39,283 bases of DNA. It comes from Bacteroidales bacterium (GTDB lineage Bacteria; Bacteroidota; Bacteroidia; Bacteroidales; UBA932). The translations under genes were made by a program, and so were the position numbers. Of this stretch, positions 1 to 23,616 are shown in pieces (within the stretch, counting starts at the first letter, position 1; every line of letters starts with the position of its first letter). The stretch is from contig JAFROJ010000043.1 of assembly GCA_017429765.1 (NCBI GenBank), forward strand, positions 1 to 39,283. The letters are read 5' to 3'. The notes under the pieces were generated by a model, which did no database searches, had not been told where the DNA came from, and saw only the letters and a program-made list of their open reading frames with translations.

Positions 1-203
1 CGATGTGCCCCACCGGCGCCATCCACGGGGTCAATTTCCCGAAGCCGCTCGACAAGGAGGGGATAAAGGCCCGCGTCCAGGAGCGCCAGCGCAAGGCCCG
101 CGAGGCCGCCGCCGCTGCCGCCGCCACGGTCCCTGAGCATGTCGAAGGGCCGGTTGTTCAACAATCTCACCAACAGGATAAAAAGGAGGTGAACAATGGC
201 TAG
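1..203 (+). CDS. rnfB: RnfB, 3' end only (ion-translocating ferredoxin:NAD+ oxidoreductase subunit B)
   Basis: The gene is cut by the left edge, so only about the last 67 codons are present. The first residues read MCPTGAIHG, the tail of a CxxxCP-type [4Fe-4S] ferredoxin motif as in RnfB, the subunit that passes electrons from reduced ferredoxin into the Rnf complex at the inner membrane. The ATG at base 3 is internal, not a start. After the cluster comes a charged, Ala-rich segment, then a C-terminal extension (VPEHVEGPVV...) encoded by a dispersed repeat (see the repeat entry). The stop overlaps the start of rnfC by 8 bp. The assignment rests on the ferredoxin tail plus the position directly before rnfC. 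Confidence 0.85.
   Translation, partial: MCPTGAIHGVNFPKPLDKEGIKARVQERQRKAREAAAAAAATVPEHVEGPVVQQSHQQDKKEVNNG
129..175 (+). repeat. Dispersed palindromic repeat, copy A (decayed), inside the rnfB 3' end
   Basis: The stretch beginning ACGGTCCCTGAGCATGTCGAA and running to CTCACCAAC matches, with one 9-bp deletion, the reverse complement of a stretch in murE near base 23370. The arms GAGCATGTCGAA (135-146) and TTCAACAATCTC (157-168) form an imperfect inverted repeat. It is translated in the same frame as the murE copy (VPE-VEG-GPVV-Q--HQ). It lies 15 bp before the rnfC Shine-Dalgarno sequence, so its hairpin could influence rnfC translation; that part is inference. Confidence 0.8.
183..190 (+). 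promoter_or_regulatory. Strong Shine-Dalgarno sequence for rnfC
   Basis: AAGGAGGT ends 5 bp before the rnfC ATG and lies inside the last codons of rnfB. It is a near-perfect anti-16S match. This is notable because Bacteroidota genes mostly lack such sites. It fixes the rnfC start at base 196. Confidence 0.75.
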
Positions 204-13058: not shown

Positions 13059-14663
13059 TTAGACTTCCTCGTTTTCCATGTCATCAAAAATGTCTCCGGT
13101 CACCTTGGTGATGGTGCTCTGGATGTGCTTCAGCCAAGTGAACTGGGGCTTCGAACGGGGTTCTCTCGGCCCCGTCGGCTTCTTTCTCTTTCTGATCTTG
13201 GCGGCCTTTATCTCTTCCTCTGTGGGCTGGTCGAACACGTTGGTGCTCTCGTCCACCTGGGCGGAGATGACGCTTTCCTCGATGGCGGGCTCGGGCCCTT
13301 CGGCCCTTTCGACCCCTTCGACAGGCTCAGGGACCGGGTGGTTCTTCGCTTCGCTCAGAATGACATCGGTGCCAGGGACCGGGAGATTCTTCGCTTCGCT
13401 CAGAATGACATCGGAGTCGGGGACCGGGGCGGCGGGCTTCGGGGCGGTCCAGTAGCGGCGTGCCGGAGCCTCGTTGACGCAATTAAGGGTTATGTCGTTC
13501 TTGGCGGCCATGATCATCCCCATGGATGTCGCGGCAGAGGCCTCACCGGCCTCAGGGCAGCCCTCGTTCGAGAAGAATCTCCTGGGCAAGCCGATCTTCA
13601 CCGAATATCCCGACAGTTCCTTGATGTAGTTGGCGCAGTTGACAAGGTCGGAGCCTCCTCCCGTCACCACGACTCCCGCCCTGAGGACATCCTCGCTGGA
13701 GTATCCGCTTTGCTGGATGTAGTAGAGCAGGGCCTCGATGATCTCCTTCATCCTCGCCGAGATGATCTCGGAGATGTATTTCACGCCCACATGGGCGGTT
13801 GGAGTCTCGTTCTCGTCAACGATCTGGAGGGTCTTCTCGCCGAGAGCCGACAGTTTCCCGGGCATGCAGGCCCCGTAGGCCTTCTTTATGTTCTCCGCCA
13901 GGCGGAACGAGAAATTGCACTCCGTCTTGATGTCCTCCGTGACACTGTTGCCGCCGAACGGGATGGCGGCATAGAAGCGCATGATCTTCCCCTTGAATAT
14001 GGTGACGGAACTGACCCCGGCGCCTATGTCGATCAGCGCGACCCCGTTCTCCATCTGCTCCTCTTTCAGGACGGCCCTCGCCGTGATGCCTGGAGTGAAG
14101 TACTTTTTAGCGATGGCGATCCCCATGCTGTTGAACACGGAATCGATGTTGGCGGAATGCTTTCTCTTGCCGACGAACACTTTGAAGTTTCCCTCCAGCT
14201 TCTCGGCTGTCATTCCAACAATGTCGGCCTCAAGCTCCCCGATGGAGTCCTCCGTCGAGAAAGACTGGGCCACGGCCCCGTAGATCACATCGTTCTTCGG
14301 GTCCCCGAGGGGATATTCCTCAAGAGCCATGGACTTGAGTGTCCTGATCTCCTCCTCGGAGATCTGGCTGTCCGGCTCGGTCCTGCTCATACTGGCCGAA
14401 GCGGTCTCCTGACGAACATAGTACCTCGGCAGGCCCACGATCACCTGCTGGATCTTGATCTTGAGTTCCTGCTGAGCCTGGGTCAGGGCGTCCCTCAGCA
14501 CGTTCTCAACCTTCCAAGGGTTGATCACGTAGCTGTACCGGACGCCTTGCGAGGGTGACTCCTTGTAGTAGATCACCTGGACATCCTGGCCCGAGATCCT
14601 GGCGATGCAGACCGCCAGCTTTGAGGTGCCCAGATCGACTGACGCTATATACCTTTCTTCCAT
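13059..14663 (-). CDS. ftsA: Cell division protein FtsA with repeat-bearing C-terminal linker
   Basis: FtsA is the actin-like membrane tether of FtsZ. The N-terminus shows the ATPase phosphate-1 motif (VDLGTSKLAVCIA), a 1C domain, phosphate-2 (IDIGAGVSSVTIF) and an adenosine motif (VVTGGGSDLVN). The actin fold ends near residue 400. After it, residues of about 415-458 come from short dispersed DNA repeats (two 15-residue units with VILSEAKN, then PVPEPVEGVERAEG). Next is a basic KIRKRKK stretch and a final amphipathic helix (FTWLKHIQSTITKVTG) likely to bind the membrane. The total of 534 residues is longer than the typical 400-450. The division role should be unaffected because the insert sits in a linker. 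Confidence 0.95.
   Translation of the reverse strand: MEERYIASVDLGTSKLAVCIARISGQDVQVIYYKESPSQGVRYSYVINPWKVENVLRDALTQAQQELKIKIQQVIVGLPRYYVRQETASASMSRTEPDSQISEEEIRTLKSMALEEYPLGDPKNDVIYGAVAQSFSTEDSIGELEADIVGMTAEKLEGNFKVFVGKRKHSANIDSVFNSMGIAIAKKYFTPGITARAVLKEEQMENGVALIDIGAGVSSVTIFKGKIMRFYAAIPFGGNSVTEDIKTECNFSFRLAENIKKAYGACMPGKLSALGEKTLQIVDENETPTAHVGVKYISEIISARMKEIIEALLYYIQQSGYSSEDVLRAGVVVTGGGSDLVNCANYIKELSGYSVKIGLPRRFFSNEGCPEAGEASAATSMGMIMAAKNDITLNCVNEAPARRYWTAPKPAAPVPDSDVILSEAKNLPVPGTDVILSEAKNHPVPEPVEGVERAEGPEPAIEESVISAQVDESTNVFDQPTEEEIKAAKIRKRKKPTGPREPRSKPQFTWLKHIQSTITKVTGDIFDDMENEEV
13313..13420 (-). repeat. Composite repeat in ftsA: half palindrome plus two 40-bp direct repeats (45-bp period)
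   Basis: TTCGACAGGCTCA at 13317-13329 is identical to one arm of the murE palindrome. Next to it, two 40-bp units (13330-13369 and 13375-13414) differ at only three positions and share TTCTTCGCTTCGCTCAGAAT; their 45-bp period equals 15 codons. On the coding strand they translate to DVILSEAKN-L/H-PVP. The opposite palindrome arm is absent here. Both parts match kinds of short repeat I know to be scattered through many bacterial genomes, often within genes; no database check was possible. Confidence 0.85.
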
Positions 14664-22092: not shown

Positions 22093-23616
22093 CTATTTGT
22101 CAATTGTTTCCACGGTTTTGAAAAGCTCGTCGAGGATCTCTCTCTCATCGAAGTGCCGCTTCTCCTGTCCGATGATCTGGTAGGTCTCGTGTCCTTTACC
22201 GGCGAGAAGGATCACGGCTCCGGGGGAGGAGAACAGGAGCGCGGCCCTCATGGCCTCCTTCCTGTCCGGGATGAACACGGCCCTCGACAGCCCCTTCTGG
22301 CTGAAGCCGGCCTTGATATCGCTGAGGATGTCCTCTGTCCTCTCTGAGCGGGAGTTGTCCGAGGTGACGATGATCCTGTCCGAATATTCCTCGGCGACCT
22401 TGGCCATCTCGGGCCTCTTGGTCTTGTCCCGGTCGCCCCCGCATCCGAACAGGCAGACCAGCTCTTTGCCGCGGTCCACCTCCCGAAGGGTTCTCAGCGC
22501 GTTGTCCAGCGCGTCCGGGGTGTGGGCGTAGTCAATCACGAAGGAGAGATCCCTCGGGCCCCGGATGATCTCCAGCCTTCCGGGGGCCGGCTCCAGCTTG
22601 CTGATAGCCACCAGAGTCTCCTCAGGGTCGGCTCCCAGGGCCATGGCGGCGCTGTAGATCGCGAGGATGTTGCTGGCGTTGTGCTTCCCGACCAGCCTGG
22701 TCCAGGCCTCGCGCCCGTCGATCCTGAGAAGCATTCCCTCGAAACTCTCCTCAAGAACCCGGCAAGTGTGGTCTGCCATGCCCCTGCAGGAGAATGTCAC
22801 GACTCTCGCCTTGGTGTTCTGGGTCATGACCTCGCCGTGGCGGTCGTCGATGTTGATGACGGCCGTGGCCTTCGGGCCGAGGTTGTCGAAGAACAGTTTC
22901 TTGCAGCGGAGATATTCGGCGAAAGTGCCGTGGTAGTCGAGGTGGTCGTGGGTCAGGTTCGAGAATATCCCCACCTTGAAATCAAGTCCGGCGACCCTTT
23001 CCTGCTCCACCCCGATCGAGCTCACTTCCATGAAGCAGTACTCGCAGCCGGCGTCCACCATCTCCGCCAGCAGGGAATTGATCACCAGGGGGCTGGCCGT
23101 GGTGTTGGCAGTCTCAGAGCGGCGCCTCCCCACATAGTTCGCTATGGTCGAGAGCAGGCCGCAGTTGTATCCCTGTGCCATGAACATGTTGTACAGGAGG
23201 GTCACTGTGGTGGTCTTCCCGTTGGTCCCGGTGATGCCCACAAGCGATAGCTTCCTGGACGGGTTGTCGTGGAAGTTCGCGGCGATGATCGCCAGGGCGT
23301 GACGTGACGAGGAGACCTTGACGAAGGTTATCTCTGGTTGGTGAGCCTGTCGAACCACCGGCCCTTCGACCCCTTCGACAGGCTCAGGGACCGTAGGGAC
23401 CGTGGGGGCCGTGTCTTCATACACGACCGCGGCGGCGCCGGCCTCTATGGCCTTGCCGATAAAAGAGTGCCCGTCGACCCCTAGTCCCTTGACGGCGACG
23501 AAAAGGGCGCCCGGCGTAACCTTTCTCGAGTCGTCGACAACGGCGCTGACGCCGATGTCAAGGCTTCCCTTGACCTCGACGACCCCGCAATCCTTTATGA
23601 TGTCTCCCAGTCTCAT
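22093..23616 (-). CDS. murE: UDP-MurNAc-L-Ala-D-Glu--diamino acid ligase MurE, with repeat insertion
   Basis: MurE adds the third residue (meso-diaminopimelate or lysine) to the stem peptide. The start MRLGDIIKD at 23616 overlaps the ftsI stop as ATGA; the open frame continues upstream but only through ftsI. The P-loop is ITGTNGKTTT (about residue 115). The substrate-choice motif reads DNSR (residues 420-423): the Arg argues for meso-diaminopimelate, but the usual Pro is Ser. Residues of about 70-96 in the N-terminal domain, between VVYEDTA and EITFVKV, are an insert encoded by the dispersed palindromic repeat. The rest, 507 residues in all, is intact. Confidence 0.96.
   Translation of the reverse strand: MRLGDIIKDCGVVEVKGSLDIGVSAVVDDSRKVTPGALFVAVKGLGVDGHSFIGKAIEAGAAAVVYEDTAPTVPTVPEPVEGVEGPVVRQAHQPEITFVKVSSSRHALAIIAANFHDNPSRKLSLVGITGTNGKTTTVTLLYNMFMAQGYNCGLLSTIANYVGRRRSETANTTASPLVINSLLAEMVDAGCEYCFMEVSSIGVEQERVAGLDFKVGIFSNLTHDHLDYHGTFAEYLRCKKLFFDNLGPKATAVINIDDRHGEVMTQNTKARVVTFSCRGMADHTCRVLEESFEGMLLRIDGREAWTRLVGKHNASNILAIYSAAMALGADPEETLVAISKLEPAPGRLEIIRGPRDLSFVIDYAHTPDALDNALRTLREVDRGKELVCLFGCGGDRDKTKRPEMAKVAEEYSDRIIVTSDNSRSERTEDILSDIKAGFSQKGLSRAVFIPDRKEAMRAALLFSSPGAVILLAGKGHETYQIIGQEKRHFDEREILDELFKTVETIDK
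23336..23402 (-). repeat. Dispersed palindromic repeat, copy C (intact), inside murE
   Basis: TGAGCCTGTCGAA (23342-23354) and TTCGACAGGCTCA (23374-23386) are a perfect 13-bp inverted repeat around a 19-base centre that itself contains CCCTTCGACC. The coding strand also has a 9-bp tandem ACGGTCCCT beside one arm. The element is translated as VPEPVEGVEGPVVRQAHQP, keeping murE open. The same DNA in the same frame and orientation, minus 9 bp and with point changes, ends rnfB, and one arm appears in ftsA. Confidence 0.85.

Follow-up and report, generated by a model that had tools for sequence, protein, structure and literature searches.

REP sequences and their paired BIME arrangements are grouped into GTAG and CGTC superfamilies, and according to the available portion of Di Nocera et al. 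2013 (PMC3733652) some REPs are intragenic whilst most are intergenic. The same portion reports CGTC repeats in Bacteroidetes and describes them as having no dedicated transposase. Excerpts of a second paper (PMC8266576) describe how such palindromes can be recognised. The substrates of TnpA-REP (RAYT) enzymes are hairpins formed by a folded single strand, bearing mismatches or bulges, whose loops the enzymes contact; at the ends of IS608 and the IS200-IS605 group, an unpaired T and a specific loop base of a hairpin are read by the transposase.

The window analysed here is a stretch of 39,283 nucleotides from a Bacteroidales bacterium (contig JAFROJ010000043.1). An earlier note on it had described perfect 13-bp arms around 19 bases inside murE, and the match is exact: reverse-complement arms lie at 23342-23354 (TGAGCCTGTCGAA) and 23374-23386, with 19 bases between them. 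The murE element consists of two ~28-nt hairpin units in convergent orientation. Probably it represents, in two-unit form, a short hairpin element of the REP/BIME type that is not autonomous, is moved in trans and is filtered by reading frame. The related copy reported for rnfB was found at 127-176, and the single arm reported for ftsA is present at 13317-13329; beyond that arm, ftsA also holds two units of a second palindromic family. What had been called a 9-bp deletion in rnfB is better read as one 9-mer GTCGAAGGG fewer, since this copy fits the 23-nt class of core spacings described below. The features are as follows.

22093..23616, minus strand: murE, start inferred at MRLGD
23334..23394, minus strand: complete two-unit (BIME-like) element in murE, translating as VPEPVEGVEGPVVRQAHQP; the syntenic murE of relative G017 is without it
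23367..23394, minus strand: CCC-type hairpin unit in murE, core 23374-23386, frame S1 (VPEPVEG)
23334..23361, plus strand: TGG-type hairpin unit antisense to murE, core 23342-23354, frame A2 (VRQAHQ)
126..175, plus strand: two-unit element in decayed form at the rnfB 3' end, with core TGAGCATGTCGAA at 134-146, reading VPEHVEGPVVQQSHQ
13059..14663, minus strand: ftsA, with three units past the FtsA domain, in the tail
13310..13337, minus strand: single CCC-type unit in the ftsA C-terminal tail, core 13317-13329, reading VPEPVEG
13339..13365, minus strand: sister-family unit TGTC-ATTCT-GAGCGAAGCGA-AGAA in ftsA (ILSEAKN), core 13345-13357
13384..13410, minus strand: second sister-family unit in ftsA, core 13390-13402, in a 45-bp tandem with the unit at 13339..13365

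Across the organism's own genome (2,362,535 bases in 75 contigs) the core TGAGCCTGTCGAA occurs exactly in 38 copies against 0 for the pattern read backwards, and with at most one mismatch in 100 copies against 6 for the reversed control, which excludes chance. The palindrome family is thus dispersed, as had been claimed, and the possibility that the genome carries only the copies in the window does not hold. Sites were chosen by core, independently of the stem, yet the stem is present at 94 of the 100, giving a palindromic unit within the 20-40 nt and high copy number typical of REPs. The six sites without a stem were left out; five look like chance matches and one (C27 18558) resembles a unit with a broken stem.

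Aligned copies define a unit of ~28 nt, CCGG-T-CCC-TGAGCCTGTCGAA-GGG-CCGG, or written by parts CCGG-T-CCC-TGAG-N5-CGAA-GGG-CCGG. A second stem type has TTGG...CCA where the main type has TCCC...GGG, and there are rarer, fully paired stems: CCG/CGG three times, and TGC/GCA, CGC/GCG, GCC/GGC, TCC/GGA, TCT/AGA and CGG/CCG once each. Throughout, the head GAG-N5-CGA is constant while the stem arms change together. Its middle five bases are CCTGT in 45 of the 94 units, CTTGT in 16, CCAGT in 16 and others in 17, and the unpaired base at the foot of the stem is T in 73 of 94. The full 3-bp inner stem was found in 78 of 98 distinct 33-mers against a shuffled mean of 35.5 (0 of 2000 shuffles as high), and once 33-mers with CCC or GGG arms are set aside it is full in 27 of 38 against 10.3 expected; these shuffles and p-values treat related copies, and units of the same insertion, as independent. 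Stem usage differs between genomes, with TTCC/GGA in five of the eight units examined in G120 and TTGG/CCA in most units of G052. Variation of the stem in complementary pairs around a fixed head indicates that a folded hairpin is maintained. The sequences 5'-TGAG/CGAA-3' are able to form tandem sheared G-A pairs in DNA. Folded as DNA, single units are mildly better than shuffles (z of -1.82 and -1.27; +0.25 for a sister unit).

The sister family seen in ftsA, TGTC-ATTCT-GAGCGAAGCGA-AGAAT, shares its head pattern with the main unit and includes GCGAAGC. In the available part of PMC10527192, CGCGAAGCG is described as an extraordinarily stable DNA hairpin. The ILSEAKN unit fits the CGTC superfamily, whose marks are a CGTC/TGTC tag and a stem beginning with AT, with TGTC in 14 of 14 and TGTC-AT in 13 of 14 of the non-genic matches listed, out of 17. 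The main unit carries neither published tag. GTAG lies within 16 nt upstream of the core in 0 of 94 units and downstream in two (CTAC in two and one), whilst CGTC is found upstream in 5 of 94 and TGTC in 11 of 94, the TGTC count coming partly from nested sister units. In about nine cases a main unit sits within a unit of the sister family, and eight of these composites, unlike the plain unit, lie outside scored ORFs; they were noted on contigs C18, C28, C34, C44, C45 and C55 (L107, L112, L115, L024, L123, L126).

If the unit were mobilised in the classical manner, by a Y1 transposase of the genome organised as a REPtron (the RAYT partner that the earlier note had raised), units would be expected around such genes. 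The genome does encode three Y1_Tnp proteins at E<=0.001 (six at E 0.1) with HxH and Y motifs identified by eye, which match NF047646 REP_Tyr_transpos weakly, at 27, 27 and 50 bits against a cut-off of 80, and within the genus 89 of 121 genomes carry Y1_Tnp. Five element-rich genomes have 32 Y1 loci between them, of which 30 were scanned. None of the 30 had units on both sides; near them we found one main-family unit (L159, at about 0.8 kb), one sister-type unit (L182) and one chance-like match (L158). By coordinates, a unit lies no more than 2 kb from at least 4 of these 32 Y1 genes (for G102, among the matches listed), but mean density alone predicts 2.4. Over the 121 genomes, the number of Y1 genes is uncorrelated with element copy number (rho 0.12, p 0.19; partial rho 0.05 when genome size and completeness are taken into account). 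It does track copies of the sister TGTC family, counted as TGAGCGAAGCGAA (rho 0.44; partial 0.42, p 2e-6), in a correlation that ignores phylogeny. With neither flanking nor copy-number tracking, and no GTAG tag at the units, RAYT mobilisation is not supported for the main family and we consider it unlikely.

Several other routes to a mover were followed. A single mover for both families was considered and set aside, as their copy numbers are only weakly correlated (rho 0.21, p 0.02; partial 0.14, p 0.12). Inspection by eye of ten patches revealed no recurrent gene bracketed by units. A Y1 motif scan of 80 cross-phylum loci, using a motif that recovers only 8 of 30 known Y1 loci, found none and for that reason carries no weight. 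The correlation between the sister family and the number of Y1 genes, which are distantly RAYT-like, is an observation in its own right, and may be a lead to the missing mover of CGTC-type repeats.

An account that needs no transposase invokes slippage in replication, template switching or gene conversion at hairpins. It draws on the arrangement of neighbouring units. Genome-wide there are 21 neighbour pairs at most 70 nt apart, of which 7 are convergent, as BIME units are, and each of these joins a CCC-type to a TGG-type unit. Their core spacings are set at 23 (four pairs), 32 (two) and 41 (one), that is, in steps of the 9-mer GTCGAAGGG, and the murE copy belongs to the 32 class; the remaining 14 pairs have other orientations or spacings. 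Ahead of several full units stand half-units made up of CCGGTCCCTGAG and filler, at spacings of 18, 21, 30 or 45 nt. The 9-nt steps, the half-units and the tandem and nested copies all point to local copying. Slippage would, on the other hand, hardly account for units scattered over 48 ORFs from unrelated families, a constant head with exchanged stems, or an identical 19-mer in many phyla, and as the source of the family it too seems unlikely.

Half-units of CCGGTCCCTGAG and 9 variable bases can run in 21-nt steps before full units, encoding PVPExxx repeats (e.g. L028, L022, L032). At L101 2275-4500, a TonB-dependent receptor has an N-terminal run of RLAQND repeats beside VPEPVEG, both families having expanded in one frame. 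A glycine dehydrogenase (L030 68-1828) contains two VPEP-ILSEAKN-VPEPVEG mosaics about 120 residues apart.

Most copies lie in genes. Of the 94 units, 70 (74%) fall inside 48 ORFs that score as coding, and 24 outside. The claim that no copies lie between genes accordingly stands within the window and fails genome-wide, although one of the 24 is the rnfB copy, which is genic and cut by the window edge. Gene calls came from our own codon model, trained on 12,501 codons of the window, with whole-ORF scoring. A first call by codon score of the flanks (46 in genes, 34 not, 14 unclear) proved overly strict in clusters of units and gave way to this one; the frame bias described below is alike in both. 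Four of the 70 ORF cases look chance-like by eye (C54 6832, C56 6800, C67 16669, C74 20219) and were kept. Since genes cover 97.6% of the window by our own selection of ORFs, units are depleted from genes even though most units are in them.

Pfam matches were obtained for 33 of 36 scanned unit-bearing ORFs. The families include MurE, FtsA, a second Mur ligase, YgbB (IspF), DNA polymerase I, UvrB, RelA/SpoT, BacA, DnaX, PGI, lipoate ligase, a 2-oxoacid dehydrogenase E2, glycine dehydrogenase, SufBD and a RadA-like ATPase (named RadA by eye). Many units sit between domains or in tails. In E2, for example, the unit is at residue 216, between domains at 144-177 and 231-457; another ORF has one at residue 283, separating an endonuclease/phosphatase domain ending at 271 from a GDPD domain starting at 307. 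The DnaX unit is at 447, past domain III, and the FtsA unit, also at 447, is past the FtsA domain. Those of YgbB, PGI, the RelA HD domain and BacA are inside the domain match, where they presumably occupy loops.

This distribution bears on whether units are kept as RNA hairpins (for stability or termination) or as DNA sites of a host protein. The paired murE copy folds well as DNA (z -2.43) and better as RNA (z -3.38), so its role need not be confined to DNA, and the available portion of PMC3733652 indicates that REPs are thought to act in these ways. An RNA element placed after genes would look different, however: 70 of 94 units are in scored ORFs and their orientation there is even (34 sense, 36 antisense). 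We therefore judge retention for such a role improbable.

Comparison with relatives indicates that the murE copy is an insertion. It falls in a part of the N-terminal Mur ligase domain that differs in length from one relative to another; alignment to a solved structure (8f5d) opens 18 gap positions there, and the syntenic G017 gene is 54 nt shorter at this site. MurE is free of the peptide in all 18 congeners and all 9 order-level relatives compared, so that the element is not a conserved part of MurE orthologues (0 of 27); this supports its having been inserted after the genus diversified. IspF has a 10-residue insert that all 17 relatives compared lack (18 other genomes matched, with the fragmentary G015 left out), and the peptide is absent from six more, but the nearest three (G017, G045, G102) have unrelated loops that are only 3-4 residues shorter, which counts against a clean reading of the site. 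A SufBD-type protein has, by eye, an N-terminal insert relative to G045. For rnfB the comparison with relatives covered G017, whose gene is without the unit. The ftsA tail differs: G017 (L213 16234-16270) has a similar CGGTCAATGAGCCTGCCGAG at the aligned position, without a paired stem and without the sister-family units, so the ftsA copy of the window may be older than the split and CGGTCAATGAGCCTGCCGAG in G017 possibly a decayed unit of common origin. Between own and relative sequences we saw neither a target-site duplication nor a base-exact empty site, and the flanking loops differ. The idea that these are ancestral or positively selected protein segments, palindromic by coincidence, has in its favour the strong bias to linker-like frames and the possible ftsA relic in G017, but is largely contradicted by absence from MurE in 27 of 27 and IspF in 17 of 17 relatives and by copies in several frames, on both strands and between genes, and is very improbable.

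The same MurE loop carries other palindromes in three congeners. G003 (L047) has CGTC-ATTCCCGG-CTTGA-CCGGGAAT, which fits the published CGTC tag and its stem and loop lengths, with the tail CTC, not CCA; G014 (L049) has a decayed form of this palindrome, and G005 (L054) a TGTC-type sequence. It thus seems that a single permissive loop in an essential enzyme was entered by different palindrome families, independently of one another. The long MurE loop of G004 (L046), with inverted arms ACTGCGCCC...GGGCGCAGT, may represent a further family.

Residence in genes is accompanied by a choice of reading frame. Five of the unit's six frames are free of stops, and the 70 in-gene units are distributed as S1 (VPEPVEG) 29, A2 (LRQAQG/VRQAHQ) 16, A1 (PSTGSGT) 15, S2 (SLSLSKG) 5 and A0 (FDRLRD) 5, three of the A0 cases being among those that look like chance sites. 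S1, A2 and A1 together account for 60 of 70 (p 2.7e-6 against 3/5 expected) and, in a stricter set with one unit per ORF, for 31 of 35 (p 2e-4). The same three frames hold all 5 in-gene cases in congeners (29 units of four element-rich genomes, scored with the codon model of the own genome) and all 11 across phyla (84 units scored). This bias suggests that proteins act as a filter, letting linker-like peptides through. Together with the positions in loops, linkers and tails, it bears out the suggestion that copies survive as a stop-free frame in such places.

Expansion within the genus is patchy. Amongst 121 genomes (own included, drawn from a larger group), copies of TGAGCNTGTCGAA number 58, 58, 48, 37 and 20 in five expanded genomes, 13 in one other and 0-8 in the rest, with a median of 1. 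The element reaches well beyond the genus: the 19-mer CCCTGAGCCTGTCGAAGGG is present in at least 117 stretches of the GTDB genome collection, where base counting predicts about 2, and the titles of 80 loci among the matches listed are assigned to about 14 phyla. Many of these genomes are MAGs in which contamination is possible; named isolates alone place the 19-mer in Actinomycetota, Pseudomonadota, Spirochaetota and Bacteroidota. Of 104 other TGAG-N5-CGAA sites in the 80 loci, 54 have a full 3-bp stem; its letters are of many different kinds, and an outer CCGTTC/GAACGG often accompanies it. In contrast to the own genome, the 84 cross-phylum units scored comprise 54 non-coding, 19 unclear and 11 in genes, by rough codon models self-trained on single loci and after dropping 8 of 92 query units at locus edges. 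In IMG/VR at least 120 stretches match the 19-mer and 0 match its reverse; the matching contigs may hold host DNA. A check of viral carriage with a 15-mer (at least 120 against 106 for the reversed control) was uninformative.

We propose that the unit folds as single-stranded DNA into a hairpin with an exchangeable paired stem, one unpaired base (mostly T) and the fixed head GAG-N5-CGA. A trans-acting enzyme, probably of the HUH/Y1 kind, would read the folded single strand and copy the hairpin to new sites during replication. Two points keep such a reader the likeliest mover: the contrast between a fixed head and a stem that needs only to pair, and the example of the IS608 and TnpA-REP enzymes, which recognise unpaired bases and bases of the loop (excerpts of PMC8266576). 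Genic insertions would persist where the frame stays open, the peptide is linker-like (VPEPVEG, PSTGSGT, LRQAQG) and the insertion falls in a loop, a tail or a linker between domains, and would then decay; the repeat need not serve the host. The parts of this model differ in strength. That there is an element family subject to a frame filter is very likely. Recognition of the single-strand hairpin in trans is somewhat favoured, whilst an enzyme resembling Y1 or RAYT proteins in particular is a possibility we hold with some doubt.

In the text of open-access papers no description of the core, its common variants or the encoded peptides was found; the few papers that matched look unrelated, judged by title and opening of the abstract. 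With neither a GTAG nor a CGTC tag, this class of hairpin element is apparently undescribed; in-frame palindromes as such are known. A tentative extension would make it a third, tag-less REP-like superfamily, spanning at least a dozen phyla in nearly identical letters, served by one conserved single-strand hairpin activity and seeding proteins with flexible linkers. In-frame palindromes are familiar from Rickettsia and some REP-rich genomes; here a REP-like element lies mostly in genes, essential ones included, and its choice of reading frame can be measured. The hairpin substrate is defined by letter, as to which bases are fixed and which need only pair. As CGTC repeats are likewise said to lack a dedicated transposase, what copies these hairpins becomes a direct question. 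The element is also a source of new enzyme loops and could mislead the annotation of genes and domains.

The element resembles REP/BIME sequences (available portion of PMC3733652) in its palindromic units of 20-40 nt, high copy number, opposite-orientation pairs and presence of some copies in ORFs. It differs from them in having no GTAG or CGTC tag, in its fixed head GAG-N5-CGA with an exchangeable stem, in lying to 74% within scored ORFs rather than predominantly between genes, and in the occurrence of the same 19-mer in genomes of about 14 phyla. With the ends of IS608 and the IS200-IS605 group the units share a hairpin with an unpaired T, but no IS tied to them was found and no element boundaries were seen. 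With TnpA-REP REPtrons they share the hairpin substrate, but not, at the 30 Y1 loci scanned, the REPtron arrangement. Rickettsia palindromic elements are alike in their in-frame insertion into unrelated genes (here 48 ORFs), and are set apart by described length, ~150 bp in the available part of PMC10969869 against 28-60 bp for the element described here.
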